From the IMG/VR virus record IMGVR_UViG_3300035199_000659, positions 1 through 64,000 of that record: a stretch of 64,000 nucleotides of DNA. One strand, written 5' to 3'. The position numbers and the translations under genes were made by a program. Shown in pieces: positions 8,026 through 48,089 of this stretch. Source of the DNA: a virus. The first letter of the stretch is position 1. The number at the start of each line of letters is the position of its first letter. The notes below the pieces were generated by a model, which ran no database searches, was not told where the DNA came from, and saw nothing but the letters and a program-made list of their open reading frames with translations.

Positions 8026-8027
8026 GT

Positions 8028-29113: not shown

Positions 29114-30665
29114 AATCTTCTACTCGGAACTTGAATACTTCTGACTGCTCGGACCATGATGCCAGTGCTGGATCATAGAAGGAGAATTTAAATGCGTACT
29201 GATACCCGGGTTGCAAAATAGACATATCAAAGTCAAAATAGTTTCCGGATACATCATGAGAGAGTGAGGTACACATGTCAGAGCCTGTTCCATATGGGAT
29301 TGCTTCATATGCATCTAGAATTCGAAAGACCCGATATGAGGCGCTAGCAATCGTAAGCACCTCTGGGTCGTTATTGGCAACCGTATAAATGGTCGGATCC
29401 CAGTTCTTGTTTCTAACATATAAATTGAATCTAGCGGTCTCGTTGCTTCTATAATTTTGCTTGAGATTCGTAATGTTCATAAAATATACCGGTTTTGCTA
29501 CGGTCTGGGCGGCGCTTAACACATTCGGCTTGATCGCGCCTGTAAAGTATTGTATACTGCCAGAATACCATACATCAAACAGGGGATTGACTACGGTCGT
29601 CGTGCCATCGCTCAAGGAGATCGACGTTGCAGCCAAGCACACAGAACAAGTATAGATGCCCTTGGATACCCATCCTCCGGTAGCCGGCGTGTACAAAATC
29701 TGTGACTGTGCGGAGCCTGATGGGACTGAGTTGTTTAGTGAGCCCGAGTATATGTTGACAAATATGGGATCGCCATTGTCGACGTTCGGGATATTTCTCA
29801 ATTCTCCTCGCACGTAGTTGTATAGATACAAGGTATTCATATTTTCTGCTGCAGTGGCCAAGGAGCTACTGTAGTAGAAATCTCCTCGATCATCATTTCG
29901 CACACTGTTCCAGCGCGCCTCTATAGCGGGGCGTTTGAAGTAGTATTGTGAGCCTCTTGCAAAGAATCGTTTAGTATAGTAAGATTTTGTAGCGCCTAAG
30001 CGGTTGTTCTGCACGCTCTGATCGGTGCCGACAGAGGCTGTGGCTCGAGCTTCATAGCTCGAAGATAATTTTACCCCCACACCATAGTTTGCAATGCCGC
30101 CGCCGCCGGCGCCTTTGATCCATCTTTCGACCAAGGGGGTTATATTGATCTCTAGATCTTCTAGACCGGTTTCAAATGTTTGTTCATACCGATAGTCAGC
30201 CGAACTTGACAACCAATCTCCGCCACCAGAAACCGAATTCCATCCGGCAGTGTTTGAGGCACTCATCCAATTGGCGCCCGTATTTCCCTTCGTTTCATCC
30301 TTATATGTATCCAGATCCAAGCCAACACCTTCTTGCCAATCTGTAAAGATGGGGTTCACAACCATCTTGAAATCGCGAGGTACAGTACGAGACGTTTTAG
30401 CCCCATAGAGCCTCAAGTAAAAGCTTACACTTCCACTGCCCGGGATTGTGCCGGCTGTTCTATCTGAAGAAATAGTTGCGGTGGGAAACTTCACCAAAGC
30501 ACGAGAAAGCTCCTGCGAGCCGGATGTAGCCCTTCCGTAAATCGAAAATACTTCCATGATATCCGCCATGCCCATATTGGAGCCTGTGCCACGTGTTTGT
30601 AAATTTGGTTTAAATGCGTTGACAATAGTGGTGTCTGCAGTGGCTTTATATCTCTTAATGGCCAT
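29103..30665 (-). CDS. Virion protein with DNRLRE-like N-terminal domain
   Basis: 520 residues. RYKATADTTIVNAFKPNLQT then LSRALVKF (about 5-65) resembles the DNRLRE/disaggregatase-related beta-sandwich used in surface proteins; ERWIKGAGGGGIANYGVGVK matches its later conserved part. The C-terminal portion is beta-rich with an Ig-like finish (YQYAFKFSFYDPALASW). It directly follows gp6 and overlaps the giant LamG protein by 11 bases. A role as a baseplate-outer or fibre-attachment protein is likely; exact function unknown. Confidence 0.65.
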   Translation of the reverse strand: MAIKRYKATADTTIVNAFKPNLQTRGTGSNMGMADIMEVFSIYGRATSGSQELSRALVKFPTATISSDRTAGTIPGSGSVSFYLRLYGAKTSRTVPRDFKMVVNPIFTDWQEGVGLDLDTYKDETKGNTGANWMSASNTAGWNSVSGGGDWLSSSADYRYEQTFETGLEDLEINITPLVERWIKGAGGGGIANYGVGVKLSSSYEARATASVGTDQSVQNNRLGATKSYYTKRFFARGSQYYFKRPAIEARWNSVRNDDRGDFYYSSSLATAAENMNTLYLYNYVRGELRNIPNVDNGDPIFVNIYSGSLNNSVPSGSAQSQILYTPATGGWVSKGIYTCSVCLAATSISLSDGTTTVVNPLFDVWYSGSIQYFTGAIKPNVLSAAQTVAKPVYFMNITNLKQNYRSNETARFNLYVRNKNWDPTIYTVANNDPEVLTIASASYRVFRILDAYEAIPYGTGSDMCTSLSHDVSGNYFDFDMSILQPGYQYAFKFSFYDPALASWSEQSEVFKFRVEDYEY

Positions 30666-32461
30666 TATTTAACCTTTCCTATAATGTCGGTAGTCGGATA
30701 TTTTAATTCCACGACAGCGTTCTTCGGCACAATAACATATGTGCCGTCTGGGGACGTGTTATCATTAATATTAAAGCTAACTGCTGAGTAGTTGGCGCCG
30801 GCTTTGTTTATAATTGCCACTTGAGATACTTCTAAGACCCCAGAGACTTTGTTTAATTCGGCATAAAGCTCTACTACACTAAGGTGTTCGCCAATATAGG
30901 CATGTGTTTGAAACTTCTTGCGAAGAGCTGCATTACAGGACTCCAATAGATCATATTTGTCAACTCCGGTTTTCGGGCGCACAATGTATTGAATCCCAAA
31001 GTTGATGATATAAGCATCTAGAATATCAATTGTATCATTGATCATCCTGTGCTGATTAAGCCAAGTTTTTAAGTTCTTTTTAATGGTATTATTGCACAGG
31101 GTAAGGTGCCCGACCGCATCAATGGAAATAACATACATATTCAAGTTGCGTTTACGTTCATCAGGGTCGCGCTGGACTGAACATCTTTTTACAGCGCCGT
31201 ACTTCTCTGGCATCCGATACGAAAGATTTTCATAATCCGCCTGTGTCACAGCCCTGTTTTGAGTTGGAAAAGTATCAAAAATCTTTCTTTTAATCTCATC
31301 AGATGTTAATTCAGCAACATTGCCAACTATCGGCTCTTCATTGCTGACCTCAAGCGATTGCCTGACTTCGTCCATAAGGCCCGAATCAAGATCTTGTGGG
31401 TTGCTAAATTCAAAAATGCTGTTTCCAACTTCGTTCAAAGTGGCCACTGCGGCATTCGAGTTTGCTGGGTTCGTGATCCGATAAACCACATTCAACGTTG
31501 TGTTGGATGGCACAACACCATAGCTTTCATTTTGGCTCAATCGCGTGGGATCAAACGTGGTGTCCGTAATATAATCTTTCCCAAAAATATCCATAGCCAC
31601 CGCTCCCGGGTCAGCTATAATATTAGTTCCGGCGGCCTGACCACTTCCAAATTGAATAACGGTGTTGGAGCGGCCGCGCTCGACGACAAACTTTCTTGAC
31701 ACCAGATATGGCTTCAAAATTGATGGAACATTATCGTTCCTGAAATTCATGTTTGGCACTTCTCTAAAAATCATATCTTGTGAAAGGTAGTCTACTTCAT
31801 AGTATTCATTCCCCTCTGAGTCAGTAATAGAAATGATCTCGCTCATATTAGGGTTGGAAATACCCACCTTTTTAAATCTCTCATAAGCTCCAACTTTAAT
31901 CTGCTCGCGAGTAAAATAGCCCGATACAACGTTGCCATACGCTTTAATTGCATAGTATGTTGGGGCGCCAGTAATTGTGTTGGTTCTGGCAGCAACAATG
32001 GCGTTTTGTGGATTGGTGAAATCGACATTAGCAGTCAAAACAAAGTTTAAACCACCTGTGGTGCTAAATCGTGTTCCCCGCTTGAGAATGGGGGTGTACC
32101 TGAGATCTGGACCAATACCAGTCGCACTAGCAGGCACTAGAACATACATCGAAACTGTTCCGAAGGTCGATGGGCGGCCGCGGTTTTTATATCCCAGTGC
32201 GCGGCCGTGGCGGACAATATTATCATACTGGTATGCGGTGTCCAGAAACGCCTCATTGACATTGTAGTCTAAGTAAAAGTTTAGCTGGTCAGCCACATAT
32301 GCGACAGCATCAACCATCATGGCCCCAAACGAACCTTCGCTAAAATCTCTGAAGGAATCTGGATAAAGCCTTTCCGCTACTTGTACAAGATCACTACGGA
32401 TTGATTGGAACTCTCTATGTGTGTAGTCGATAGGGACTATCTTTTTTTGGTCATCTGACAT
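30665..32461 (-). CDS. 6: Baseplate wedge protein, T4 gp6/gpJ-like
   Basis: 598 residues (T4 gp6 is 660). The N-terminus YTHREFQSIRSDLVQVAERL, then the DFSEGSFGAMMVDAVAYVAD segment and LDYNVNEAFLDTAYQYDNIV are typical of gp6/baseplate J-like proteins; the C-terminal third has IKRKIFDTFPTQNRAVTQAD with the YE.L before a ferredoxin-like region. gp6 forms the wedge ring that opens from hexagon to star. It immediately follows gp25 and overlaps the next gene as TAATG. Confidence 0.9.
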   Translation of the reverse strand: MSDDQKKIVPIDYTHREFQSIRSDLVQVAERLYPDSFRDFSEGSFGAMMVDAVAYVADQLNFYLDYNVNEAFLDTAYQYDNIVRHGRALGYKNRGRPSTFGTVSMYVLVPASATGIGPDLRYTPILKRGTRFSTTGGLNFVLTANVDFTNPQNAIVAARTNTITGAPTYYAIKAYGNVVSGYFTREQIKVGAYERFKKVGISNPNMSEIISITDSEGNEYYEVDYLSQDMIFREVPNMNFRNDNVPSILKPYLVSRKFVVERGRSNTVIQFGSGQAAGTNIIADPGAVAMDIFGKDYITDTTFDPTRLSQNESYGVVPSNTTLNVVYRITNPANSNAAVATLNEVGNSIFEFSNPQDLDSGLMDEVRQSLEVSNEEPIVGNVAELTSDEIKRKIFDTFPTQNRAVTQADYENLSYRMPEKYGAVKRCSVQRDPDERKRNLNMYVISIDAVGHLTLCNNTIKKNLKTWLNQHRMINDTIDILDAYIINFGIQYIVRPKTGVDKYDLLESCNAALRKKFQTHAYIGEHLSVVELYAELNKVSGVLEVSQVAIINKAGANYSAVSFNINDNTSPDGTYVIVPKNAVVELKYPTTDIIGKVK

Positions 32462-32477
32462 AAAAAACCCTCATTTT

Positions 32478-32846
32478 TTAAATAGTTATTTCTAATAAAT
32501 CTGTCGAGCCTATTCGTGGAATCGAATACTTCACCGCAACATTCAAAATGTTAGAATCTTGATCGGCAGCACTAAACATTATATCCCCAATAGTAATATA
32601 GGGCATATACATTGTTACCTGAGCCCTGATGGCATCATCCATTTGGCTATATGTATTTCCATTAAACGCCTCAAACAAAAAAGTTTTTAATCCAACGCCG
32701 TATTCGGGTTCCATGACCCTTTCTCCCGGGATAGTCAATAGGAGCATCTTTAAATTTTGTTTCACTAAGGCCGAAAAGTCGCGGATGACTGTGAATCCGT
32801 CTGATGAGTCCCGAGTTATCGGCAGTGCTGGGGCATAACTTGACAT
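32478..32846 (-). CDS. 25: Baseplate wedge protein, T4 gp25-like
   Basis: 122 residues (T4 gp25 is 132). The hallmark PGERVMEPEYGVGLKTFLFE (about 40-59) with the EPR/EPEYG-type motif of the gp25/W family is clear, followed by the helix DDAIRAQVTMYMPYITIGDI and a final strand. gp25 sits at the inner baseplate where sheath contraction is triggered. It is followed 16 bases later by a gp6-like gene, an order common in contractile tails. The ATG is preceded by AAAGGA. Confidence 0.9.
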   Translation of the reverse strand: MSSYAPALPITRDSSDGFTVIRDFSALVKQNLKMLLLTIPGERVMEPEYGVGLKTFLFEAFNGNTYSQMDDAIRAQVTMYMPYITIGDIMFSAADQDSNILNVAVKYSIPRIGSTDLLEITI

Positions 32847-32873: not shown

Positions 32874-35800
32874 TCACACATCTTTCTTTTCGCACAACTC
32901 ATCTTTAGCATTAAACGGGTTGCTCTTGAGTCTCTTGCGCTGCCACCATGGTATAAGCTGTCTGCCCGGGGCAGGTCGAAGGGCATCAAGAAGCTTCTTA
33001 AAGGCGATAGCGGCTGGTCCTCCCTCGGTTGATTTACCAATCTGGTCAGGATCAAAGTCCCGGGAATAATAATAAGCTTTAAAGATCTTTTTAATTCGCG
33101 AATTAGAGTTGGTGAGTAATTCTCGATCCCAATTGTCCCACTCCATGACACCTATGCCGCCTAAGAAATTGGGCGTACGATCTTTCTTGGAAGCCCACGC
33201 GCCGTCGGTATTACTGTCTCCAAGCGGGTTGTCCACTTCATCGGAGAACAGGGAGACACTCGTAACTTTGCCGTCTTCTTCTTTAGTCTCTTTCCACATG
33301 CCCGGCTTTGTGGAAGAGTCATAATCTAGGTTTCCTTTGAACGATGTTTCACCATTGGCTACAGTGACCTCACCAATAGAGGGCAGCATCCCCATATCGT
33401 TGTATATCGCCGCAACTGATAACAAGTGCGCGGAACCAAAGATGTATCGTGTAAGTAACTGGAACTCATCGCTTTCTTTCATTGTGTTGATGAGACACAA
33501 GAGGTTCTTGCTGTTTCCTGTTAGGGTTCGGAAGTCTCTAACCTTAAGATCTAGCGCGTCGATTTCTGTTTTAATCATGGTGTAGGCGGATCCGTCGATA
33601 TCTAATCGTAGTCGCAAGCCGTAGCGGACCCCCAACTTGCCCTCGATCCCAACAGCTTCACCGTCATCGTTCTCCACTACGCTCATGGTACCGGGGTAAA
33701 TCTCTGACAACAGAGTATCGGGATCGTTCGCAGCAATTAATTCGGCGGCGATGTCCGGTGCATATTTGGAGCCATCAACGGAGATGTATTTTTCAAGGAT
33801 TAAAGGTTGCGCTGTGCTCCCCATGGCCACTGTGGTGCCATAGTCGCCAACGGTTCCGATCGGCACTGTAATCATGTTAGCTAGCGGCTTCAGAACGTCG
33901 TGTGCTTCTTCGGAGTGATATTCACCGGCCATATAAACTTTGGCGTAATCTTCGTCAATATGCACATGATAGTAGCCGATATATTCTTGACCAACTTGAT
34001 ATCCAGAATCGTCATTGTCTTCTTCAACAACAAGTTCACCACCATAAGTATAGTATGGTTCAGACGCGTCTTCATTGTCTTCATAAGGCACTTCAGGTAG
34101 ACCTCCGTAAGTAGCCTTAAACGTGCCATCGGGATTTATTGCCGAGTTAAGAGTAAGTTCGCTGCCGCGGACCATATTCTCTAAAATATAGTAGCCCATA
34201 TCAACAACGTCGGGTGCCAAATTTAGCCTAGCGAAATTCTCTTCAAGCTTCGTGGACATAAAATCAAGCTGCTGTTTCACCAATTCTTTCATAACAAGTT
34301 TGGCGTCTTCCTCTGTAGCTCGAATGGCTTCCAAGTTTTTATCCGTACGATAGCTTTCTAAAGTCTGAAACGTGCCGGCGTCGTCGGTCGCCTTGGCCAC
34401 TTTCAAATCTTCTTTGTTGGGATAGAGGAAATCCTCTTGCAAATCATTGAGCCTAAAGAGGGCTTCAAGAACATCCGGCGATGGGTTTACGAGGCCTGCA
34501 TCAATTTGCATGTTATACATTTGGACACACGTCTCTAAAAACGCATACCAAAACTCAGTATCTTTGAACGTGTTAAACACTTCCCAGAAGGCCGGCTGGG
34601 CGTCCAAGAAGCCCGCTTCCATGTTCTCTACAATGTAAGATGCATATGCGGATCCAAACAGATCTGGGAATTTGGGAGAGAACTTAGTAAACGTCGGCAG
34701 CGTTTTAATCATGTGAACACTCACGTGAATGCGAATTGCTGCTATAACCAAGCCGTACAGGCCTGCTTTTGCCGAGCGATCTAATATCCTATTATATGGC
34801 ACTTCTAAAATGCAATCGGGATCGCTTTTAAGGCGCTCATCTTCAGACAGAGAGGGATATATTCTGCTCATCTCATCTTGAATCTGCCCAAAGTCAATCA
34901 TGTCAGTAGTCTGAGGTTTACAAGGGCTGAGTTCTGGGAAAAAAGCATCCACAACGCCCATCCAGCCAATTGGTTTTATGGGCTTAATATAAATCGGAGG
35001 GTTCATATAGTTGCCACCAAATTTTGCAGGATCGAGGTAATATACGCGTGTAAGTTCTGGGGTGCCGGCTTGCTCCATCTCATATTGATTCCTACTCATT
35101 CCCAGTACCATGTCTGTATTGGAATAATCTGTGTCGCTGTAAAGGGTGAATCCGCCCTCCTTCACGCCATATTCGATGTCTTCTTCTGTTAAGCCATCAA
35201 TTTGGGCTCCGTAGGACCAAGCCGTTTCGTTTGTTGCCACATCTGGATCTGCAATAGTGTACATAATGTTGGCTAAGAAATCCTTCATAACGTCGGATCT
35301 TAACGACTTAACTGTCGAATTGGGGATATCGTGGCCATTGTTTTCTAGCATCTCGGCTAACAAAATTGTTTGGGGCGTGAAATTAGTTTTTGACTGAAAC
35401 GAAGCCAAGAAGCTTGGGTAGTTCTCTAAAGTTTGTGCAATCGTGTCGCTAATTCCTGTTAGGGTGTCATCAACAGCTAAGAACTCAAAGACTGTTGATT
35501 TAATAACGGCGTCTTCTCCAATATCTTGTGTCACTTCTTCATTGTCGTAGCCGGCGGCGGTCTCGGGTGGGTCGCCGCCTAGGCTGCCAAAACTGAGGCC
35601 CTCATTTGGATCTCCGACTGCGCCGGCATCAAGTGACATATTGGTTCGGGCGCCCATATTGTATCGATCTACAATCTTGATTCTCATGTTATCGCTTTTT
35701 CTGTTAGTTATTTGGCCTTCTTCGTTCTCATATAAGTCCGAGAAATAAGCCTTGATGTCAAATCCATAACCATATACTGATTGATTGCCGTTGGGCCCAG

Positions 35801-38800
35801 AAGCCATCCCGGCAGCATTATCGCTGAAAGATACTGATATATCTGCATCGGCTTTTCGGCCTTCGGCAGTAAATGCAATCCCCGACATGTCGCCGTCGCT
35901 GTCAACCATTGCTTTCATTGTTATGTCGTAGCCCATATCCGGCAAGTTAACCAAATCTAGGTTATTGCCGAACAAGCTGTCCATATCTAAATCTGCTAAT
36001 GATTTAGTCCAAGAAGAAGCCTCTTTCCACTCGTTATTAGGATCGACAGAGATTGAACCTGCGACATCGGTCATGACATCTTGTAGCCATGCGCCCACCT
36101 TTGTGGGAAATGCACCCTTTTGGAATAAGACTGTCCACGGCAACAGGGCTAAAGCGACCGGTGCAGCAAATATAGCAATAGGGGCATATTCTTCAAGCTT
36201 GGGGTTCCAACCGCCATTATAATCGGTATACATGGGATTGAATGAAGCTTTACGCATATGTGCGGTTAGAGGGTTACCCATCGTATCTGAAAGCATCATG
36301 TTGACTAATCCCCAGTTGCCTTGGCCGGGGCCGTTGCCCAACATATCAGTGCCGTAATCGACCTTTAACTGCTCTAAAACATTCCCAAGGCCAGCGGTAA
36401 CTGTGGCAGTCGTAACTGCGGGTTCATATGGAAGAAGGCCATTGTCGCATCCCGGATCGGAATAAGTTGGGGGCATTTGTTCGCCGAGGTATTGTTCAAG
36501 GGCTTCTGGAGATGAGATAGCCTGAAGGACTGTACTAAGGTCCCCTAAGTCATCCAGCATCTGCTCTTTCACGCTACTGTGCATCTTCTCACACTGCGCT
36601 GGGGAAGCGCGGCCTTCGAGGTAGGCGCACTGAAGCTCTTGGAATTCTGCCAGTTTGGCTGGGTCTGCACAGATTGAAGGATGTGCCGGCATATCATCAG
36701 GCATTGATTCTAATTGGTCTCGTAATGAAGCCCTAAAAGACGCCGGAAACAAGACACCCATATTACTCATAAAGCTGCCAATTGCCTCTTTGTTTGGAAG
36801 CGCTTCGCGAAAGGCTGGTGAGGTCTCATATTCTATATAACTATCAATGATTGTGAGTGTGTCACTAGTGGCTTCACCGAGCAGAGCTTGTGTAAGCTCA
36901 GCATTGGTAAGGGACATTGATATTCCTTGGGCGAATTGGAGTGAGGCCTCTCTGTCGGCGAGGGCGGCGCCGCCCACTCCAAGCTGTGCAACCATTTCTG
37001 CGATCGTGTCATCAACCTGATCTTGGTCTGCGTCTGGGCCACAAATTGAGTCTTTGATAACGTTGCTCAAGTTGTCGCGGCCAGACAACAAGTCCGGTAA
37101 CGAGGCGGCGATATCGCCAACAGTACCCAGTGCATTACAAATCGCATTTCCGAGCAATTCACACAGTTTTACTATGAGACGAACCAAAATCTTAATAATC
37201 ACCATCTGAATGGCATACATAAGTGCTTGGTATAGCATCCAAAGCAAGTCTTTAATCTTTGGGTACCACGCGCTAATATTGACCAGCTTGGGCCAGTTAA
37301 TCTCGTTAACATTCTTGCATATTGGAAGCTCAATGTCATTCATCCAGTCCATAAGGCCGGGCTGGAAAAGAGGAGGGCGGGGGCAATCCATAAGTGCGAT
37401 GATGGTCGCGATCAGCTGGGCGCCCGGGAAGCGGTTTAGCTCATCGGCGAGTGATAATAGGTCATTACCATAAACTTCCAGAACTGCTTTAATATAGGCT
37501 TCTAAAATTGCTGAATCCCAGCCGGGGCCCAGAGCGCCATCAGCATTAACGCTCAAGGTTCCAGTTCCAGTGCCAGAGTCATAATTGACTGCCAGTGTTC
37601 TACGACCGTCTGCGACTGGGGCTCCCACATTGGTGGATGCATCAGGCTTGTTTTTATCAGCCTCTTTTTGGGCCATTCGGCTAGTCCAATCGGCTAAGGA
37701 GGGTAGTTGTATATCGCCGGCGATGCCATCAGATAAGTTTTGGGCAAGAGAGCCTTCCGGGAATACATCCCCGTCTTGAATCTTCTTCTTCGCCAATTCT
37801 CCAATTTCTTGTTGCTTTTCATATGGAAGCCCAACGAACAAGTCGCCCAAGTTGTTAATAGACATAGCTCTAAGGCCAGATTCAAGCACTTTCGCCAGAA
37901 CCTCCTCAAGACTGAGTCCCGAAAACAAACATGTGATAGCTTCCATTAAAATATCGAAAAGGCCGCAGATTTTAATATCATTAAACCCATTCTTCCACAA
38001 CATATCCAACTGCTTCTCTGCAGAAAGAGGGCCAGCGGCGCCGGCAACTCCAGATGCCACGGGGCCGGGTGGCAGCATCGATGATGCAACATGGGCGCAC
38101 AAGGAGACAAACGGGCTTTCAGATGCGTTTAATTCTTTGAAGGCTTGCTCAGTGGCAAATGCGGAGATGTTCTTTTCGTTTTCGCGTTGAGGTGTGAGCG
38201 GATTGTCTGACATTGACCGGTCGACCACAACACCAAGCCTAACATCTTCATCTAATTTCTCACCTAAAGAAGCCTTGCATATTTGTTCGTGAAATTTAAA
38301 CGCAATAGCATCGCCAATACTAAACACGTCGTCTAAGATATCTTCGCCCAATTGTTTGGCTTCCTCTTGAAGGGCCTCTTGAACACACCCAAGCGCATCT
38401 TGCTCAAGACTTTCTTCATCCTGTGTTGCGTATATCTCAGGATGGGTATATTCTGTTAAAAATTCGATCCATGGTTGCGGAGTTCTGGCTGTAAGGGCGG
38501 CCTCCATCTCTCTAAGTTTGGTGAAATATGCCATGGCTGTTCGGTCTTTCCAAGCCGATTTTGAAAGCAGCTCTTTGGCTTTGCTGTTGAATGTTTGCTT
38601 ATCCTCTCCGCAGCCTTCCGTATAAAACTCAATCTTTTTGATTTTATATTTATAATCAAAGGTGAATGTAATCTCTGTGACGGCATTGTTGCCATTAAAA
38701 ACTTCTGAAAAGTATCCACCTACGTTAGGGATATTGTAGCCATATTTATTAAGGACACCATCAAGCTCTGGTAATATTTTAGACATGACTGCTTTATCGC

Positions 38801-39491
38801 CGCCCCATCCGATGTCTCCATAATTCTCTAAATTGAAAATCTTGTTCCCATCGGAGAATTTTAAGTTTCCTTTCTCGATGGCACGATAGACTTTTAGATA
38901 TCTGTTGTATAGATTCAGGCCCTTTCGCACCTTCAACATCATAGGATCTATTTCATGGGCGGAAAAGCTGACGACGATATCACTTGTATCTTCCTCTTCG
39001 TCGTCCTCATCTGAATCTCGGGCGGGCAACTCTTCCAAAGCGTCGTACGGAACAGAATACAATAATTTTAGGCGTGTTTTGTGTCTGGCCTTGAGCCAGT
39101 AATCAGTATACTCTATGACCTCTCTTATCACCTCAACACTCGCAGCGCTGTTGTCTTTATCGTGAGTCTCTAGAAGTGTCTCGATAGCTTCGTCTTCATA
39201 CTCCTTAAATATTTCATCAAGAGCAGCCTGTTCCTCATCTTCTGTGGCGCCGGGGAAGGTACCCGTGGTCATATGTTTTGCGGCAGTGATTGTAATCTGA
39301 TACTTACAATTCTTTTCGTTCAAGAACGATTCAAACTTGTCCTTTTCTCGCCAGTTGGGCACCAAAGCATTAGAATTGGGTTCACACCCCGGGCAATATT
39401 TTGGCTCTGTGGCAGCAAATTTTTCTGGGCAGTCATCATTTTGACCGTCGCCGTTAGCGTCCTGAAATGGCAGGAACTTTGATTCTGACAT
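32874..39491 (-). CDS. Giant virion structural protein (2205 residues)
   Basis: 2205 residues, uninterrupted. The N-terminus has a calcium-loop-like DANGDGQNDDCP (11-22) and a cysteine cluster (C21, C33, C36) before VPNWREKDKFESFL. A strongly hydrophobic helical stretch lies at about 748-790 (LLWMLYQALMYAIQMVIIKI followed by LVRLIVKLCELL), which could be membrane-inserting. The middle and C-terminal parts are acidic, with paired helices (EDAKLVMKELVKQQLDFMST). No enzymatic motif is visible. Its place between the tail-tip gene and gp25 suggests a baseplate or tail-tip scaffold, possibly entering the host membrane on injection. Function is unproven. Confidence 0.7.
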   Translation of the reverse strand: MSESKFLPFQDANGDGQNDDCPEKFAATEPKYCPGCEPNSNALVPNWREKDKFESFLNEKNCKYQITITAAKHMTTGTFPGATEDEEQAALDEIFKEYEDEAIETLLETHDKDNSAASVEVIREVIEYTDYWLKARHKTRLKLLYSVPYDALEELPARDSDEDDEEEDTSDIVVSFSAHEIDPMMLKVRKGLNLYNRYLKVYRAIEKGNLKFSDGNKIFNLENYGDIGWGGDKAVMSKILPELDGVLNKYGYNIPNVGGYFSEVFNGNNAVTEITFTFDYKYKIKKIEFYTEGCGEDKQTFNSKAKELLSKSAWKDRTAMAYFTKLREMEAALTARTPQPWIEFLTEYTHPEIYATQDEESLEQDALGCVQEALQEEAKQLGEDILDDVFSIGDAIAFKFHEQICKASLGEKLDEDVRLGVVVDRSMSDNPLTPQRENEKNISAFATEQAFKELNASESPFVSLCAHVASSMLPPGPVASGVAGAAGPLSAEKQLDMLWKNGFNDIKICGLFDILMEAITCLFSGLSLEEVLAKVLESGLRAMSINNLGDLFVGLPYEKQQEIGELAKKKIQDGDVFPEGSLAQNLSDGIAGDIQLPSLADWTSRMAQKEADKNKPDASTNVGAPVADGRRTLAVNYDSGTGTGTLSVNADGALGPGWDSAILEAYIKAVLEVYGNDLLSLADELNRFPGAQLIATIIALMDCPRPPLFQPGLMDWMNDIELPICKNVNEINWPKLVNISAWYPKIKDLLWMLYQALMYAIQMVIIKILVRLIVKLCELLGNAICNALGTVGDIAASLPDLLSGRDNLSNVIKDSICGPDADQDQVDDTIAEMVAQLGVGGAALADREASLQFAQGISMSLTNAELTQALLGEATSDTLTIIDSYIEYETSPAFREALPNKEAIGSFMSNMGVLFPASFRASLRDQLESMPDDMPAHPSICADPAKLAEFQELQCAYLEGRASPAQCEKMHSSVKEQMLDDLGDLSTVLQAISSPEALEQYLGEQMPPTYSDPGCDNGLLPYEPAVTTATVTAGLGNVLEQLKVDYGTDMLGNGPGQGNWGLVNMMLSDTMGNPLTAHMRKASFNPMYTDYNGGWNPKLEEYAPIAIFAAPVALALLPWTVLFQKGAFPTKVGAWLQDVMTDVAGSISVDPNNEWKEASSWTKSLADLDMDSLFGNNLDLVNLPDMGYDITMKAMVDSDGDMSGIAFTAEGRKADADISVSFSDNAAGMASGPNGNQSVYGYGFDIKAYFSDLYENEEGQITNRKSDNMRIKIVDRYNMGARTNMSLDAGAVGDPNEGLSFGSLGGDPPETAAGYDNEEVTQDIGEDAVIKSTVFEFLAVDDTLTGISDTIAQTLENYPSFLASFQSKTNFTPQTILLAEMLENNGHDIPNSTVKSLRSDVMKDFLANIMYTIADPDVATNETAWSYGAQIDGLTEEDIEYGVKEGGFTLYSDTDYSNTDMVLGMSRNQYEMEQAGTPELTRVYYLDPAKFGGNYMNPPIYIKPIKPIGWMGVVDAFFPELSPCKPQTTDMIDFGQIQDEMSRIYPSLSEDERLKSDPDCILEVPYNRILDRSAKAGLYGLVIAAIRIHVSVHMIKTLPTFTKFSPKFPDLFGSAYASYIVENMEAGFLDAQPAFWEVFNTFKDTEFWYAFLETCVQMYNMQIDAGLVNPSPDVLEALFRLNDLQEDFLYPNKEDLKVAKATDDAGTFQTLESYRTDKNLEAIRATEEDAKLVMKELVKQQLDFMSTKLEENFARLNLAPDVVDMGYYILENMVRGSELTLNSAINPDGTFKATYGGLPEVPYEDNEDASEPYYTYGGELVVEEDNDDSGYQVGQEYIGYYHVHIDEDYAKVYMAGEYHSEEAHDVLKPLANMITVPIGTVGDYGTTVAMGSTAQPLILEKYISVDGSKYAPDIAAELIAANDPDTLLSEIYPGTMSVVENDDGEAVGIEGKLGVRYGLRLRLDIDGSAYTMIKTEIDALDLKVRDFRTLTGNSKNLLCLINTMKESDEFQLLTRYIFGSAHLLSVAAIYNDMGMLPSIGEVTVANGETSFKGNLDYDSSTKPGMWKETKEEDGKVTSVSLFSDEVDNPLGDSNTDGAWASKKDRTPNFLGGIGVMEWDNWDRELLTNSNSRIKKIFKAYYYSRDFDPDQIGKSTEGGPAAIAFKKLLDALRPAPGRQLIPWWQRKRLKSNPFNAKDELCEKKDV

Positions 39492-40475: not shown

Positions 40476-41786
40476 TTAACTTGTGTAGCCCCAATCTACA
40501 CCCTCGACGCCATATGTGGGATCGGTCTCGGGCGGATCGCCGGCGGCTACCCAACTATCTCGATTCTCTGTGTCCCATGGACGCTCTGCTGAAACGACAG
40601 CGTTGCTGGTGCCGGTTAAATCTGACCACAACAATAGTGTGTATGTAACTCGCGTTTGACCGGTGGACTTCCAGATACCCCACGCTTTTTCAAAGTCAGA
40701 ATTTTTCTGGAAAACTTGGCAGCCGGCGGACCAAGTACTGACTTGCTGGCTGTTTTTGCCTGATCTGTGAATATTGATGCCGAAGCGCTTACCGGTATCC
40801 TCTCCTCCACCGGATGATTCCCAATCTAAAACTGCATCAGCGTTGTTGTCACGATAAACTGTCACTTCACCAACTTGCTGCAGGCCGGGCTTTCCCGAAT
40901 GCTTGCCAAAAATATACGCATCCACATATTGGCCCTCTTTAAGCTGGGCGGCTCCTTTTGCATTAAGATACTCTTTAGCAGCAGTTCGATTAATAATCGA
41001 CAATCCGGGATCGGTCGTAATTTGAAAGCCTATATCGTTCCACATGCCGTCCTTAAACCATATAAGATGCATAACATCATCAAAGGAGTCTGGCACTCTA
41101 TTCGATGAGCGAACCCCGATAGAGTTAATCGTCCCATCTTCATATACTTTATATCCCTTGTTTCGCAATATGGTGATCAGCTTAGGCTCTTCAGCCGTTT
41201 GTGCAAGCTTGTCTGATGCAGTTAGGGGGAGGCCGGCCACGTTGCCTATAAAGCCGGGGGCTCCGCCTCCTCCAAAAAGGTTGCCCAATTTGGCGCAGGC
41301 GCCGGCTTTACTAATTTGCTGGTTCTGGAAAATATCTTTTACGCCGGTCATATCGCAAAACTGTAAGTCGTAAAGGTTTGTTAGGCCTCCGGCAAGCATC
41401 TCGCTCTCAATAATATCGCCGGGCTGGAACTGGGGCATTTCGCCCGCTTTACTAAATCGCACTTTTGTATGCAGCGCATATAATCTAGAGCCAGCGCCGG
41501 CATCGGGCGATACTGATTCGTTACACGGGTCTTCTAAGAATTTTTGATGTGGCATGCCGGGGTTAAGTATTCTTCCTGTAAATAAATATTTAGAGTCTAT
41601 GTTGGTTTGGTTTAGCAATTCGGGATCTTGATTGGCGGTGGCTGGGCCTGAGTATGGCGCAGGGCTTGACATTACTTTGAACCTAAACGAATTGTCGTTT
41701 TGGAAAACACTAGAGTCTTTCTCGTCAACTTCTTCATTTTGCGTAGCAATTAACGTTTGCAATGCTTCTCTGTTTGTCAATGACAT
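40476..41786 (-). CDS. Baseplate/tail-tip protein, paralogue 3, with L,D-transpeptidase-like domain
   Basis: 436 residues, preceded by GGTGGAG. The shared N-terminal domain (about 34-155) repeats YSGPATANQDPELLNQTNID, YLFTGRI, ALHTKVRFSKAGEMPQFQPG and LYDLQFCDMTGVKDIF. The C-terminal domain (about 203-385) ends in FGINIHRSG then WSAGCQVF: H340 and C356 are 16 residues apart with S-x-G-C, the catalytic His/Cys arrangement of YkuD-type L,D-transpeptidases. In a phage tail tip this could act as a hydrolase or a peptidoglycan-binding relic. RDNNADAVLDWE looks like a small calcium-binding loop. Enzymatic activity is inferred from the motif only. Confidence 0.75.
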   Translation of the reverse strand: MSLTNREALQTLIATQNEEVDEKDSSVFQNDNSFRFKVMSSPAPYSGPATANQDPELLNQTNIDSKYLFTGRILNPGMPHQKFLEDPCNESVSPDAGAGSRLYALHTKVRFSKAGEMPQFQPGDIIESEMLAGGLTNLYDLQFCDMTGVKDIFQNQQISKAGACAKLGNLFGGGGAPGFIGNVAGLPLTASDKLAQTAEEPKLITILRNKGYKVYEDGTINSIGVRSSNRVPDSFDDVMHLIWFKDGMWNDIGFQITTDPGLSIINRTAAKEYLNAKGAAQLKEGQYVDAYIFGKHSGKPGLQQVGEVTVYRDNNADAVLDWESSGGGEDTGKRFGINIHRSGKNSQQVSTWSAGCQVFQKNSDFEKAWGIWKSTGQTRVTYTLLLWSDLTGTSNAVVSAERPWDTENRDSWVAAGDPPETDPTYGVEGVDWGYTS

Positions 41787-41835
41787 ACGTTTTCTCCACC
41801 TTATAATTATATCAATAGCAAAATTTTACCAGCAG

Positions 41836-43080
41836 TTATGTTGTCTCTGTTTCTGGCTCTGTGGCGCCATCTCCAGCTTCTGGTGGCGGATCTTGCGGAG
41901 TAGACGCGGCAGCAGCAGCGACTGCTTCCGCGTGGGCTGCGGCGCCTTTACGAAGAAGTGAACTGATGCGTGTAGATTCCCAGTGCCATACCTCAATGTT
42001 TGAGCCGCACTTCTTTTTAGGTGGGGCGACACAAGGACGACCAAGCTCAGCGCTAACGCTGGGCTTTTGGGCCCAGTATGGATGCTCCCAATTATATGTG
42101 GATGCATTATCAAAAAGCCATTTATAAGCTTCCCCGCTAAAAGAAAGGGACTTCTTTTTACCATTTCCATCATAATAGTGGGTATCAACAGCAGCGCCCC
42201 AGCCGTGATTTGAATAGCCGGGCTTCGAAGCTTTTCCGCAAGATCCTTTGGCGCACCATGATGCCCTAAGCTTAACTTGTGTTTGATAAGTTCTATCGCC
42301 ACTACCGGCCAACTTCCACCCTTTATCGGAAAAATGAGCAGCAAAGGCTGCTGCCATTGAATCCCATTCTGGCGCTATGTCTGTCAAGACGCGGGGGTGA
42401 CCTGTCAAATATCCTTGGGTTGCGGCAGTAATGAGGCCAGCATCAGACAATTTTCCATTAGTAACGGGAGTGTTGTTCCCTCCTCCAATATAGACAGCCT
42501 TTTGGCCCGGGCCATTGCCGGCTGCGGCGCCGACTGTGGTAGCACCCATCATGGAGCCTATTTCACCAAAGTTTGCTGCTATTTTACCGTTAGCGACAGT
42601 TTTAACATCCGCACAAGTGATATCGGTACCAGCTTTACTTGGTTCTGTAAATATCTCAATCACTCTTTCGAAATCAACAGCTTGAAGATCATATTGAGCT
42701 ACATCGCTGGCCGCGGCGTCACAAGATATTTCTACGATATCGCCCGCCGTGAAGGCTGGCATTGCGCCGGCCTTAGAAACAGTCACGATTGAGTGAAGGC
42801 AGGTTAGGCCAGTTGATTTATCAGAGGTACTGCTATCGCATACGTTTTCCAAAAAAACTTCATGTGGCATTTTCTTATCTAAGATTCGGCCCATGAACTG
42901 CCACTTTGAATCTATGCCAGCTTTATTAAGGGTCTCTGGATCATCAGTAGTGGTGGCAGGGCCTGAAATCGCAATTGGTTTGTCGATCACCTGAACTTTG
43001 AATGAATTCTCATTTTGTTTGTTGTCTTGTGCATTGGAAAATTTTGCCCATGCCTCAAAATTGGAACGGTTGGTGGACAT
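41836..43080 (-). CDS. Baseplate/tail-tip protein, paralogue 2, with M15 (VanY-type) peptidase domain
   Basis: 414 residues from the ATG at 43080. The shared N-terminal domain (about 27-150) repeats ISGPATTTDDPETLNKAGID, QFMGRI, CLHSIVTVSKAGAMPAFTAG, and DLQAVDFERVIEIF. A Gly-rich linker leads to a clear M15B D-Ala-D-Ala carboxypeptidase/L-Ala-D-Glu peptidase domain (about 220-372): GDRTYQTQ, then SNHGWGAAVD (zinc ligands H292 and D299) and EVWHWE (catalytic E363, ligand H366). It would cut peptidoglycan stem peptides. The C-terminus is Ala-, Pro- and Glu-rich and disordered. Together with its neighbours it suggests a tip cassette with more than one wall specificity. Confidence 0.85.
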   Translation of the reverse strand: MSTNRSNFEAWAKFSNAQDNKQNENSFKVQVIDKPIAISGPATTTDDPETLNKAGIDSKWQFMGRILDKKMPHEVFLENVCDSSTSDKSTGLTCLHSIVTVSKAGAMPAFTAGDIVEISCDAAASDVAQYDLQAVDFERVIEIFTEPSKAGTDITCADVKTVANGKIAANFGEIGSMMGATTVGAAAGNGPGQKAVYIGGGNNTPVTNGKLSDAGLITAATQGYLTGHPRVLTDIAPEWDSMAAAFAAHFSDKGWKLAGSGDRTYQTQVKLRASWCAKGSCGKASKPGYSNHGWGAAVDTHYYDGNGKKKSLSFSGEAYKWLFDNASTYNWEHPYWAQKPSVSAELGRPCVAPPKKKCGSNIEVWHWESTRISSLLRKGAAAHAEAVAAAAASTPQDPPPEAGDGATEPETETT

Positions 43081-43088
43081 ATTCTGTC

Positions 43089-44471
43089 TCAAACTCCTTC
43101 CGTGGCGCTAGGTGTGGTGCCGGTTGCTGAACCAGTGGCAGCTGTCGCGACGGCTGGGGTTGATGATACTACGTTCTTGCATGGCCAAGTAGAATTGATA
43201 ACGTTTGCTCGTCGCTGCCAGTGCTTCTTCATTGCAGGGAACTTGCGCGATGCTTGGGTCTCCTTGGGCATGCTGATGCCCTTCACATATCCAAGCAATG
43301 TTTTTTCTGCATCCCAGCCGGCCATTCCAGCTAGCTTTGTGAAACCCTCAACGCCCAAACTGTTGCTAATTCCGGCGGCGATTGCAAATTGTCGGCCGGT
43401 TACCCAGCCGTGAGCCTTGGCTTTTTCAGATCCGGGGCCGGCCTTGGAACTCATCCACGTTGCTGTTTGGATACGCTTGGACTCTGGGCTTGCTGTGAAT
43501 TTCTGCATTCCGCTTTTCCACCAGCCGGTTGAATAACAGCCGGTGCCATTATCATTTTCGCCCATTGGCGTCGTACCTTTACAGTTATTTTTCTGCTTTG
43601 TGAAGCTTCTTAACTGCGACACACTTCTGCCAAAATACTTCTGAGACACAGTATCACCCATGGCTTTATATAGTGAGTGAAGTCCTGAGTCTGCCCAATG
43701 GGCGATGCCTATGGAGCCGCCATCAATAGCGATAACATCAGTATACTTTTTAGATTTTCCTTTCTTTGAAATAACATGATAGAGTGTGGTCTCAGCCCAA
43801 TCCGCAGGTGCGGGTTCTGTGTCGCCGCAAGATTGGGCGGAAGTGAGCATTGGGGCGCCCCCGCCGCCGGCGGTGCCACCAAAAGCTGAGCCGATCGCAT
43901 GGGCGCCTGCTGGGATCATGCGACCCAAGGAGCCAAAATTTGTACTCGCGAACATCTTTGATATGTTTTCGCATGTTTCAGATACACTTTTCTTATCCTC
44001 AAACGAGTCTTTAATTCTCACAAAATCTGCATTTTGTAGATCATACATCGTTCCGTTATCTCCAGCGCGGAACTTGCAAATAATAACGTCTCCCGCCTTA
44101 AAAGACGGCAGGGCGCCGGCTTTTGTTAACGTTATTTTGGTATGCAGGCACACAACACCGTTATTGGCGCCGGGTGATGGGGCTGTACTTTCGTCGCACG
44201 GGTCTTCGCACAGTTGGTTGTGCGTCATTTTTAGCTCCGTAATACGACCCATAAATACATATTTGGAATCTATGCCGCTATTTTGCAGATCTTCTGGGTC
44301 ATCGGCAGCAGTTGCGGGGCCTGAGTATGCTACTGGATCTGACAAAAGCTTGACGGCAAATTTCTTCTTTTTCTTAAAAATGTTTTTGCCACTTTTCATA
44401 TGAAAAGAGCCTTCTGCATACTCTTTGGGTCCGTATAGATCTTTGCCTCTTAGGGCTGTTTTACTGCCCAT
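43089..44471 (-). CDS. Baseplate/tail-tip protein, paralogue 1, with lysozyme-superfamily-like C-terminus
   Basis: 460 residues. Residues about 37-160 form a domain shared with the next two genes (VAYSGPATAADDPEDL, SKYVFMGRI, CLHTKITLTKAGALPSFKAG, MYDLQNADFVRIKDSF), possibly an OB-like virion domain comparable to gp5-type hub proteins. Then comes a Gly/Ala-rich linker (175-220) and a C-terminal domain (225-432) with IAIDGGSIGIAHWADSGLHS, a W-rich middle, GRQFAIAAGISNSLG and a final HWQRRANVI. The helix pattern and closing RR-x2-I are like chitosanase/lysozyme-superfamily glycosidases, but the catalytic Glu is not certain. Ends with a Thr/Ala/Ser-rich tail. A muralytic role in injection is inferred. 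Confidence 0.65.
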   Translation of the reverse strand: MGSKTALRGKDLYGPKEYAEGSFHMKSGKNIFKKKKKFAVKLLSDPVAYSGPATAADDPEDLQNSGIDSKYVFMGRITELKMTHNQLCEDPCDESTAPSPGANNGVVCLHTKITLTKAGALPSFKAGDVIICKFRAGDNGTMYDLQNADFVRIKDSFEDKKSVSETCENISKMFASTNFGSLGRMIPAGAHAIGSAFGGTAGGGGAPMLTSAQSCGDTEPAPADWAETTLYHVISKKGKSKKYTDVIAIDGGSIGIAHWADSGLHSLYKAMGDTVSQKYFGRSVSQLRSFTKQKNNCKGTTPMGENDNGTGCYSTGWWKSGMQKFTASPESKRIQTATWMSSKAGPGSEKAKAHGWVTGRQFAIAAGISNSLGVEGFTKLAGMAGWDAEKTLLGYVKGISMPKETQASRKFPAMKKHWQRRANVINSTWPCKNVVSSTPAVATAATGSATGTTPSATEGV

Positions 44472-44763
44472 CGTCCGCTGTTCCCTGAATCATATCAAAT
44501 ATGCTGTCTTTGTCGCCATCTGATAGTTCCGACGTCTCAACACGGCGCTTCTGGCGCAGGCCGATGAGCTTTACAAGCTGTTCGTTCGACCGTTGCATTG
44601 TTTCAATATGCTTGGCAGCTACGGGACTAAGGTACTTATTTTGTTCAGAATCAGCTGCTATCTGGTTCGCAATCTCGTTTAAAAATTCACGAGCCAATTT
44701 CCTATCATCTCGGATATTATCCAAGGCTTCGGTCATCAAATTATCCATTTCTTTTGTTTTCAT
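44461..44763 (-). CDS. Small helical phage protein
   Basis: 100 residues from the ATG at 44763, which overlaps the sigma-factor stop as ATGA. It is predicted all-helical: LMTEALDNIRDDRKLAREFL, then LSPVAAKHIETMQRSNEQLV, with an acidic C-terminus. The pattern is somewhat reminiscent of small terminase or DNA-packaging accessory proteins but no specific motif settles this. It overlaps the first wall-enzyme paralogue by 11 bases. Confidence 0.6.
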   Translation of the reverse strand: MKTKEMDNLMTEALDNIRDDRKLAREFLNEIANQIAADSEQNKYLSPVAAKHIETMQRSNEQLVKLIGLRQKRRVETSELSDGDKDSIFDMIQGTADDGQ

Positions 44764-45470
44764 AGCGAGCCGTTTTCCCAATCCTGCCTAAAATTAGAAT
44801 ATTTCTTGCGAAATTTCTTAAGAGAGTTAACAATCTGTTTGGTATTGAGATCAGTAATCTCGCGCAGGTATAAATAAATAGCTTTTTTGTTGAAAATTTC
44901 TATATCTTCTTTGGACTCAAACAAGATCATGATCGCTTTATATACTTTAAGATCGTTATCTTTCATTTGTGATTCGTCCCACGAACGAATCTCTTGATAA
45001 AACGAATCCCAAAATTCTTGTTCCACTCTATTGGAGAGATAAGACTCGGTAGTTGCTAAATATTCTTCTTCATATTTCTTAGAAATGTTTCCCAAATCTA
45101 CTTCGCGTCGATTGCGTTTCTGCTGTTGTTTTACTTTATGAATAAACCAATTTTTAGTTATGACTGAGAAATATGAAAAGGCTTTCGAGCCCTTGTTTGG
45201 ATCATACTTGTCCAAGATGGTAACGAGCCAAATTTTACACTCATCCCTAAGCGAATCGCAGTTTGGAAGTGTCGTAAATTTATAAGTAAAAACAATTTTA
45301 TCCACCATTTGATCAAAGGCCGGCTGAATATAATCAACATATAGCTGTGTTCTCGTTTTTATACATCTAATGCGTGCATATTGAACGATAGCGTCTTCGT
45401 GCACTTGTGTAAAATAATAGTTTTTGGTCTTGCTTCTACGCCTGCGGCGCTTGATCTTCTTCTGCGTCAT
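44760..45470 (-). CDS. 55: Late-transcription sigma factor, T4 gp55-like
   Basis: 236 residues from the ATG at 45470. After a basic N-terminus (KKIKRRRRRSKTK), the segment KYDPNKGSKAFSYFSVITKN and the following WFIHKVKQQQKRNRR match the region 2-like core of gp55-type phage sigma factors, which melt and bind short late promoters. The rest is helical, with a C-terminal helical segment (YLREITDLNTKQIVNSLKK) that looks like a region 4-type helix-turn-helix. In T4, gp55 with gp33 and the gp45 clamp turns on late genes; partners lie outside the window. Its position just upstream of the structural block fits that role. Confidence 0.82.
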   Translation of the reverse strand: MTQKKIKRRRRRSKTKNYYFTQVHEDAIVQYARIRCIKTRTQLYVDYIQPAFDQMVDKIVFTYKFTTLPNCDSLRDECKIWLVTILDKYDPNKGSKAFSYFSVITKNWFIHKVKQQQKRNRREVDLGNISKKYEEEYLATTESYLSNRVEQEFWDSFYQEIRSWDESQMKDNDLKVYKAIMILFESKEDIEIFNKKAIYLYLREITDLNTKQIVNSLKKFRKKYSNFRQDWENGSL

Positions 45471-45798
45471 CAAATAATTCCTTCTGTTCTTCTTCAGACA
45501 TTTCTATAGGTTCTTCCTCTGTGAGCGAGTAAACATATTCAAACGTCTCTAACTGCTCATTGAGAGAAACTGCGTGATTTAAGAGATGCTCTAATGTGGT
45601 GTCACCATAAAACATTTCTAATTCATAAACTGATTTTGTGTGTTTTGCAAAAGCATCCACCATTGTTTGCAGGTCTCCCAGTTCCCCAGAAACCATTAAC
45701 AGACGCCGGATTGCTGCTCGGGCATATACAAAAATCCCGACATTAAAGATGACTGAAAAAAATAGTACTGCGGACAATATTACTTCAAGTTTACTCAT
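45436..45798 (-). CDS. Single-pass membrane protein with acidic tail
   Basis: 120 residues. One strong hydrophobic helix at residues 5-25 (EVILSAVLFFSVIFNVGIFV), then a basic stretch AAIRRLL, a helical middle, and a very acidic C-terminus (EEEPIEMSEEEQKE, DDAEEDQ). The topology would be N-out/C-in with the acidic domain in the cytoplasm by the positive-inside rule. It is not clearly a holin or spanin. It overlaps the sigma-factor gene by 35 bases. Confidence 0.65.
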   Translation of the reverse strand: MSKLEVILSAVLFFSVIFNVGIFVYARAAIRRLLMVSGELGDLQTMVDAFAKHTKSVYELEMFYGDTTLEHLLNHAVSLNEQLETFEYVYSLTEEEPIEMSEEEQKELFDDAEEDQAPQA

Positions 45799-46276: not shown

Positions 46277-47122
46277 TTAACCTCCAAAACAACTTTCTAG
46301 TCCATTTTTAATATCAATTTGGGCAGACCACCCCAATTCTTTTAGCGCTTCCACTTTGGCACAAGAAAATTTAATATCCCCTTCTCTCTCGGGTTCTTCT
46401 GACCATAGTGCGCGGACATGCTGGTTGATATGCTGTCTAACATAGTCGATACTTGTCTCTACGCCAGTACCAACGTCGTAATTAGCGCCATTAAAATTCT
46501 CATCGTGTTCCATGCAAAAAATATTTGCTGCTATTATATCATCGACGTGAATAAAATCTCTAGTTTGTAGTCCGTCGCCATCAATCCTTAGTTGGCGGCC
46601 AGCGCGAAGAGCATCCATCCAAGCAGAAATGACTGTAGAATAGGGGCCGCCGTACTTTTGATCTGCAGAATATACATTAAAATACCGAAGGCACACAGTG
46701 TCTACATCATACAATTTAGAATACAGTTTGCATTCATCTTCGGTCATCATCTTATGTAATCCATAGGGGCTTGAAGCCCCATAGACGGCCGCAGAGCTAG
46801 CAAAAATTACGCGGCGGGCATTGACTGCCTTAGCAAATTCTAACACCCTTGAAGAGCCCAGCACATTGTGTGACAGTGATTCAGAAGGGTTTTCCACGCT
46901 CCAAGAAACACTCGGCTTAGCTGCCAGATGAAAAATATACTCCGGCTTACATTTTGGCCATGGTCGGCCGTTGAAAAACATATGCCGGCGGATGTCTAAA
47001 CCTTCAATCGGGTCCAGTGATGCCATATCGATACCATGGACCTCGTGGCCCGACTCTATAAGCTTATTATAAAGTTTAGCACCTATATATCCCTTATGTC
47101 CGGTAACGAGGCATCTAGCCAT
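46277..47122 (-). CDS. NAD-dependent sugar epimerase/dehydratase (GalE-like)
   Basis: 281 residues. VTGHKGYIGAKLYNKL (6-21) is the NAD-binding GxxGxxG motif; IFHLAAKPSVSWSVENP is the family core; ASSAAVYG gives the serine and Y120-x3-K124 in SPYGLHK the catalytic pair; TRDFIHVDDI is the extended-SDR C-terminal signature. It would epimerise or dehydrate an NDP-sugar and may act after Gmd or the nucleotidyltransferase. It is the last gene of the glycan island and ends one base before the next start. Confidence 0.9.
   Translation of the reverse strand: MARCLVTGHKGYIGAKLYNKLIESGHEVHGIDMASLDPIEGLDIRRHMFFNGRPWPKCKPEYIFHLAAKPSVSWSVENPSESLSHNVLGSSRVLEFAKAVNARRVIFASSAAVYGASSPYGLHKMMTEDECKLYSKLYDVDTVCLRYFNVYSADQKYGGPYSTVISAWMDALRAGRQLRIDGDGLQTRDFIHVDDIIAANIFCMEHDENFNGANYDVGTGVETSIDYVRQHINQHVRALWSEEPEREGDIKFSCAKVEALKELGWSAQIDIKNGLESCFGG
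46281..46285 (-). promoter_or_regulatory. Ribosome binding site fixing the start at 46275
   Basis: GGAGG on the minus strand, 5 bases before the ATG at 46275, inside the last codons of the epimerase gene. It rules out the in-frame TTG at 46287. Confidence 0.8.
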
Positions 47123-48089
47123 CTATCTCACCTATCTTATCAAATGCTGATTTCCAATCCGTAAATCGAATAGCTTTATCATCGATATAGTATCTGGCGC
47201 GAGGCTTCTCAGCGGTCACTTTGCTGACGAATTGTGCCATATTATGCTTCTTGAGCCACTCCCAAATAAGCGCTGTTCCGGTTTTTCCGTTAATCAGGCC
47301 TCTATCCGGCTTTGCTTTGCAACTATAAATGATTATAGTATGCTCCTGTGACAGCTTCTTGAGCGCATCATATGAACCTTCAATGGGCTCATCATAAATT
47401 GTCCCATCATAATAGCCCCTAGAGTTCTTGTGGATAACGCCGTCAAAATCAATGCCAATATTAATCTGTTCATCCGGGTAACTGTGTTCTCTAATTTTAC
47501 CACCCTTCCAATTCAGCTTCTTAAGGGCCTCCGGGCTGTTTTCGCCAATGGGCGGGCAAACATTCCCAGAACCATGAGTTAGTTGGTATGTTAGAAGTAG
47601 CGTGAGCACCTCCGCAGTGTGGTAGTAGTCGGCGCCAAGGATAACTTTGGTAAGCTTATCAATCTCCAGAGGGATATCCTTTGAGGTAATCATTGCAATT
47701 TGCATCCCATTTGAAGAGGCCCACTGCAGTGCCTTGAGAATGTCCACGGAGGTGCCAGAAGACGAGACTCCCAAAACCAAGGACTTCTTCATTTGCGACT
47801 TGGTGCGAGTTGCGGTTCGACAAGACAGCCAATTAACCATCCACTGCTCAAAGCTCGTATCATTAATGAAGGATGTGGCCACTACTCCGCTAGCGGGGCA
47901 CATAGCATTCTTGGTGCCATTAGATAAACGCGTCATATCAACGGCAGCATGATCGGCTACAGCCATATTGCCGCCATGGCCTAGAACATATATATCGTCA
48001 CACTCATTATACTGGGCTTGTAACGCTTCCCATTCTGGAGTGTGTACGATTTGTACGAACTTTTCTCCAATATTTTCAAAATTAAGCAC
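47115..48089 (-). CDS. SIS sugar isomerase-HAD phosphatase fusion
   Basis: 324 residues starting at a GTG 9 bases after AAGGAG. Residues 1-175 are a SIS phosphosugar isomerase domain (LGHGGNMAVADHAAVDM at about 36-52 and LGVSSSGTSVDILKAL at 106-121), resembling GmhA sedoheptulose-7-phosphate isomerases in the HGGN.A.A.H pattern. Residues 208-324 are a HAD-type hydrolase (IGIDFDGVI with D214 and D216; YIDDKAI near 301). The combination fits isomerisation of a sugar phosphate followed by dephosphorylation, as in heptose synthesis, but the kinase step (HddA/HldE) is not in the window. Confidence 0.85.
   Translation of the reverse strand: MLNFENIGEKFVQIVHTPEWEALQAQYNECDDIYVLGHGGNMAVADHAAVDMTRLSNGTKNAMCPASGVVATSFINDTSFEQWMVNWLSCRTATRTKSQMKKSLVLGVSSSGTSVDILKALQWASSNGMQIAMITSKDIPLEIDKLTKVILGADYYHTAEVLTLLLTYQLTHGSGNVCPPIGENSPEALKKLNWKGGKIREHSYPDEQINIGIDFDGVIHKNSRGYYDGTIYDEPIEGSYDALKKLSQEHTIIIYSCKAKPDRGLINGKTGTALIWEWLKKHNMAQFVSKVTAEKPRARYYIDDKAIRFTDWKSAFDKIGEIDG

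Follow-up and report, generated by a model that had tools for sequence, protein, structure and literature searches.

The window analysed here is a stretch of 64,000 nucleotides from a 96-kb IMG/VR record of an uncultured, T4-like virus with a bacterial host. Three neighbouring genes on its minus strand encode proteins referred to as A, B and C (Table 1). The three reading frames are unbroken and run between the coordinates reported in the initial annotation; B starts with ATG, but translation could also begin at a TTG 12 nt further upstream. A and B are separated by 8 nt, B and C by 49 nt, and C and the downstream gene of a putative spike by 23 nt. Shine-Dalgarno-like stretches were found ahead of B and C. 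No direct repeats were detected across the cassette in the window, and the inverted repeats at the cassette were two weak, imperfect ones of 18-20 nt only. A switching system was therefore rejected for the window.

Table 1. Genes and domains of the locus, with positions in the window.
Feature	Position	Strand	Assignment or basis
Protein A, 460 aa	43089..44471	-	OB-like N-domain and C-domain without family assignment
A, shared N-domain, residues 38-153	44013..44360	-	Profile match; AF2; OB-like by fold search
A, C-domain, residues 226-435	43167..43796	-	Three predicted strands, then helices (AF2)
Protein B, 414 aa	41836..43080	-	N-domain and predicted M15 (VanY) peptidase
B, shared N-domain, residues 27-140	42661..43002	-	BLASTP, profile match, shuffle test
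B, predicted M15 peptidase domain (H292, D299, E363, H366)	41965..42393	-	Pfam PF02557
Protein C, 436 aa	40476..41786	-	N-domain and His/Cys domain
C, shared N-domain, residues 34-149	41340..41687	-	BLASTP, profile match, model, shuffle test
C, L,D-transpeptidase-like His/Cys domain (H340, C356)	40617..41210	-	phrog_3000, phrog_33083, fold match 4lpq
Putative spike/needle protein, 315 aa	39505..40452	-	Motif KADxVRIxGREG; family profile E 1e-93; directly downstream of C
106-aa gene, 5' marker of the slot	44461..44781	-	Family profile E 1e-45
2205-aa gene between spike and gp25	32874..39491	-	Size class in relatives ~2180-2460 aa
gp25-like baseplate wedge gene	32478..32846	-	Similarity match
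gp6-like baseplate wedge gene	30665..32461	-	Similarity match
T4 gp55-like late sigma factor	44760..45473	-	Weak match, E 7e-4

To compare A, B and C, their sequences were aligned pairwise. The N-terminal ~120-175 residues share 41-49% identity (E 1e-29 to 3e-36 in BLASTP; phmmer gave similar results), and the identity within the ~120-residue N-domain itself is 47-51%. Shuffle tests returned z-scores of 46-63 for the N-domain pairs; for the C-terminal halves the values were 2.1, 0.1 and -0.1. Thus, one N-domain of about 120 residues is common to the three proteins and their C-terminal domains differ, as the initial annotation had read them. None of the other open reading frames of the window is similar to the N-terminal region of A, B or C (BLASTP), and in the whole 96-kb source record the N-domain is present exactly three times.

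The AF2 model of the N-domain of A (pLDDT ~76-94) was searched against the PDB with Foldseek. The top matches were mostly OB-fold proteins (uS12, uS17, SSB, RPA), with a best probability of 0.94 and no E value below 0.08; the fold is accordingly predicted to be OB-like. A PDB sequence search with the N-domain profile gave no match. The Pfam profile Gp5_OB (PF06714) produced no above-cut-off match in the window's record, with T4, phi-Grn1 and Mendera as positive controls, and profile-profile comparison of the N-domain with the gp5 OB domain (hhalign) gave a probability of 0.2%. By these comparisons the N-domain is not detectably a member of Gp5_OB. Although the family is very divergent, the N-domain keeps one Cys and one His almost without exception (C92 and H110 of A, in 29/30 and 27/30); the two may be a metal site or a structural pair.

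The N-domain profile also gave a marginal match (E 0.013; domain-level E 0.007) in a YqbQ/gp27-like hub protein of the cultured cyanophage S-T4 (MH412654, 28938-30200, minus strand), in which Pfam YQBQ is weak at 318-410. The match lies in the C-terminal part of the hub protein, from which the anchor domain may have evolved. If the N-domain came from the C-terminal barrel of a hub protein of the gp27/YqbQ type, A, B and C would be hub subunits and not spike adapters. The match is short and marginal, however, and the Foldseek matches are mostly generic OB-fold proteins. This origin of A, B and C is considered very unlikely.

The C-domains were examined one by one. That of B matches VanY (PF02557) with E 2.8e-7 and 30.8 bits, above the cut-off of 25, and weakly matches PDB sequences of LdcB/DacB carboxypeptidases (E ~0.002). 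The four residues of the M15 site proposed earlier are correctly numbered and are kept in 22 of 24 relatives. The C-domain of B would thus be an M15 peptidase, with predicted activity. The domain of C matches phrog_3000 (9.8e-26) and phrog_33083 (endolysin; 5.9e-9), and domains of this type were found in 24 cultured-phage records and confirmed in at least 586 IMG/VR stretches. Its active-site motif comprises His340 and SAGC at 353-356, so that S-x-G-C is present. H340 and N338 are invariant in 37/37 relatives; the WSAGCQ run that includes C356 belonged to the retrieval pattern, and the invariance of C356 is therefore less telling. The model of the domain (pLDDT mostly >90) has the L,D-transpeptidase 4lpq as its best PDB fold match, at a weak E of 0.035 and a probability of 0.75. 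The YkuD-like reading of C given earlier is retained in part: the His and Cys residues were correctly numbered and, together with the weak top fold match, liken the domain to the YkuD/phrog_3000 phage domain with its conserved His ... S-A-G-C, but no YkuD profile of Pfam or NCBIfam matches C. The domain would likely be a hydrolytic variant.

The C-domain of A, whose model is partly of low confidence, gave no match in Pfam, NCBIfam or PDB sequences, a non-significant match in PHROG and no fold match. The lysozyme/chitosanase-like helix pattern ascribed to it, and with it the label of glycosidase, found no backing in any profile or fold search, and the label is unwarranted. A search of BFVD with A returned weak matches, the third of which is a cyanophage 'baseplate hub + tail lysozyme' (E 0.017, probability 0.38). 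Among relatives, the same type of C-domain lies behind the N-domain in L104 and forms a stand-alone phage protein of 281 aa in L191; none was confirmed in bacterial genomes. In the best explanation offered below, the domain is labelled endolysin-like.

The genomic context of the cassette was compared with that of relatives. The order in relatives is a late-sigma-like gene, a ~104-aa gene, the N-domain gene or genes, the spike candidate, a ~2200-aa gene, and the gp25-like and gp6-like genes. With iterated profiles, the N-domain gene was placed directly upstream of the spike candidate, usually with a gap of <=40 nt, and a gene of the 106-aa family is the immediate upstream neighbour in 71 loci. 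The 315-aa protein of the window would be the spike. The Gp5_C profile of Pfam is absent from A, B, C and the 315-aa protein, and the 2205-aa gene is without Pfam or PHROG match. This gene order and the OB-like fold suggest that the N-domain is a virion domain. A long run of sugar-nucleotide, aminotransferase, methyltransferase and glycosyltransferase genes (epimerase, sialyltransferase-like) occupies 46277-63563 of the window.

Relatives were reached through DNA patterns. Direct scans with the three window N-domains gave no match, and neither did a scan with the spike protein. A pattern for the spike motif KADxVRIxGREG retrieved 119 IMG/VR stretches and opened up the family; a second, independent pattern inside the N-domain retrieved 48 stretches, of which 35 were new loci, most of them with the same downstream spike-family gene. 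In cultured phages A and B had no match (blastn, tblastn), and C matched through its C-domain only. The spike family (the window protein and L020:3905-4906) is frequent in IMG/VR, and tblastn against 50,697 records of cultured phages gave no match to it; the lineage that carries it appears to be uncultured. In L122 the slot is occupied by a GDS-motif protein without the N-domain (7036-8265, plus strand). The second gene of L122 was considered as a hidden paralogue and rejected, having no similarity to its neighbour. A hub-lysin C-domain in L164 (12556-13809, minus strand) is weakly SGNH/GDSL-hydrolase-like (E 0.0013, below the cut-off). The L164 and L122 proteins are possibly esterases for acetylated wall or polysaccharide.

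Copies of the N-domain were counted by whole-record search. Among 74 records including the window, 60 have one copy, seven have two, seven have three and none has four or more; many records are fragments, and the counts of one or two are therefore lower bounds. Multi-copy loci were somewhat likelier to be picked up by the second DNA pattern. The lineages with three copies, which underlie this maximum, number about three that are independent of each other. When only complete slots were considered (n=69), 65 had one copy, two had two and two had three. The cassette on one scaffold noted in the window thus belongs to a wide family of IMG/VR viruses, in which one copy is the norm and two or three recur.

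The search of related contigs for the N-domain, suggested in the initial annotation, showed it joined to at least six wall enzymes recognised by Pfam: VanY (M15), M15_4, M23, Amidase_2, Phage_lysozyme (T4-type, GH24) and the PF11860 muramidase. Other clusters of C-domains on the N-domain have no family assigned. Copies within one array carry unlike C-domains in nearly all cases. Complete three-gene arrays of this kind are present in L287 and L289 (each phosphatase-like, c2 (endolysin-like) and M15-like), in L288 (M15-like, M23 and one unassigned) and in the near-identical L175 and L186. The contig of L183, which stops short of the spike, has three copies, and the C-domains of two of them are related to each other (46% identity over 300 aa); this pair clusters with Amidase_2 members by BLAST and has no Pfam match where tested. 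Complementarity of the enzymes within arrays is therefore not strict. The family to which A, B and C belong is one of modular tail lysins in which arrays of two or three genes recur, and it is broader than could be seen from the window.

A phosphatase-like C-domain was observed on the first or upstream hub lysin of L287 (4568-5869), L289 (4501-5835), L175 (5179-6648) and L176 (10606-12129), all on the minus strand. The protein-tyrosine-phosphatase-like P-loop HC[TA]HGVDRTGAI was read directly in L287 and L289, and L176 gave weak Pfam phosphatase matches. A phosphatase at a tail tip would be odd. Two further proteins consist of little more than the N-domain, one of 222 aa in L059 (148-816, plus strand), which adjoins an enzyme-bearing copy, and one of 173 aa in L043 (13679-14200, minus strand). 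They look like enzyme-free anchor subunits.

The history of the arrays was read from a tree of the N-domains. Each of L183, L164 and L173 has its copies in a starred clade, and the copies of L059 fall together without full support. Multi-copy arrays thus arose repeatedly. The three copies of the window form a weakly supported group (65/59) next to L095 and L050; their identity is 47-51% to each other and ~44-46% to single-copy relatives. Being about as diverged from one another as from single-copy relatives, they point to an old and maintained array. One copy is present in most relatives, and the extra copies could be transient duplicates captured by recombination and heading for loss. The window copies, however, are diverged yet intact with their active sites kept, and paralogues of the classes c2 and M15-like have been kept across L157, L175 and L179. 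Such a transient state is most improbable.

Between the two N-regions of L185, identity is 80-100% at the protein level and, for most of the length, ~76-84% at the DNA level. The excess of protein over DNA identity indicates purifying selection on the protein. In L183, the identity between copies collapses past residue ~200, at the domain boundary. This pattern agrees with an anchor that is conserved and enzyme ends that can be replaced. It also bears on the possibility that one paralogue sits on the hub and that the rest act at other sites of the virion (baseplate periphery, tail tube) or in host lysis. The A-type domain stands alone in L191, the C-type domain is very widespread in phages, and the short L059 and L043 proteins do exist. 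All copies nevertheless keep the same N-domain and the same operon slot, and the N-regions of L185 are under selection as protein. A single paralogue on the hub is therefore considered unlikely.

We infer that A, B and C are located in the virion, dock on the hub, are active as enzymes and co-assemble as a hetero-trimer. In the proposed mechanism, the OB-like N-domain of each paralogue would attach to the three-fold hub at a level above the spike, itself the product of another gene, and a flexible linker would present a different wall-acting domain on each: M15 on B, an L,D-transpeptidase-like Cys enzyme on C and an endolysin-like domain on A. The separate spike would remove the covalent link that enforces identical enzyme-bearing chains, which would make a mixed trimer possible. 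The three OB positions would then be filled by the three paralogues, most likely by one of each, and after contraction the tip would attack several wall bonds at one spot. That A, B and C are paralogous hub lysins filling three hub positions in this manner, as a three-enzyme tip, has in our judgement an even chance of being right. The wider proposal, of an uncultured T4-like family with an asymmetric hetero-trimeric tip, a split-off spike and a ceiling of three genes set by three hub positions, is plausible, with the balance tipped slightly against it.

Each paralogue could instead form its own homotrimer, and one burst would then yield mixed virions as a hedge against differing hosts or wall chemistries. 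In T4, gp5 is homotrimeric (PMC3004832), VgrG1 and VgrG2 of the Serratia T6SS do not mix into heterotrimers (PMC4924876), and the C-domains vary freely between viruses. Alternative tips of this kind are at odds with a single unidirectional operon without switching repeats, however, and give no clear reason for the three-copy ceiling. The N-domains of an array are close and its C-domains unrelated, as if the proteins shared partners, but homotrimers on one hub would need that too. Such alternative tips are rather unlikely in our estimate. Co-assembly of the three enzymes is favoured over them as the more probable mode, because the genes are intact, form one operon without switching repeats and never exceed three copies. 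Since only about three lineages have three copies, the ceiling is suggestive of three positions.

If the three proteins share one tip, they would constitute a natural multi-enzyme cutting head. Judged by the literature searched, this would be the first case of a heterotrimer made of paralogues in a phage hub, and whether asymmetry is possible in a three-fold hub could be tested directly. Should the proteins not co-assemble, the family still represents a modular system of tail lysins, apparently undescribed, in which many interchangeable wall enzymes are joined to a single anchor. It spans dozens of IMG/VR viruses and none of the cultured phages by tblastn, and thus provides a catalogue of enzyme domains; the N-domain family is a sequence handle for tail lysins in dark viral genomes.

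Among known systems, the Herelleviridae tail lysins (Deep-Blue Gp189, Vp4 Gp110) are likewise bacteriolytic baseplate hub proteins (PMC11406892), but there is one hub lysin per phage and it is fused to a gp27-like hub domain. The specialised ('evolved') VgrGs have a gp5-like core, varied C-terminal effectors and several paralogues per cell, and heterotrimers of them are a published T6SS model (PMC10433429). They differ in being secretion-system spikes with gp27 fused, and a tandem triplet of paralogues in a single slot is not usual among them. No description of gp5-type paralogue arrays was found in the literature searched. In T4 gp5 itself, the OB domain, lysozyme and beta-helix are parts of one chain (Gp5_OB PF06714, Phage_lysozyme PF00959 and Gp5_C PF06715 in Pfam), and the intertwined beta-helix forces a homotrimer. 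Three copies of gp5 are present per tail, the OB domain is the adapter between gp27 and the beta-helix, and gp5C trimerises (PMC3004832). A, B and C resemble it in having an N-domain, predicted to be OB-like, followed by a predicted wall hydrolase, in a baseplate cluster near gp25 and gp6. In the T4-like phage phi-Grn1, gp5 precedes gp25 and gp6, and the slot of A, B and C corresponds; the relative L167 carries a T4-type lysozyme domain. The differences are that the N-domain is undetected by Gp5_OB or hhalign, that the putative spike is a separate gene, with no Gp5_C (beta-helix) match in the A, B or C chain, and that the enzyme domain is freely swapped, with up to three paralogues. Modular hub lysins analogous to T4 gp5 are the best reading of the family.
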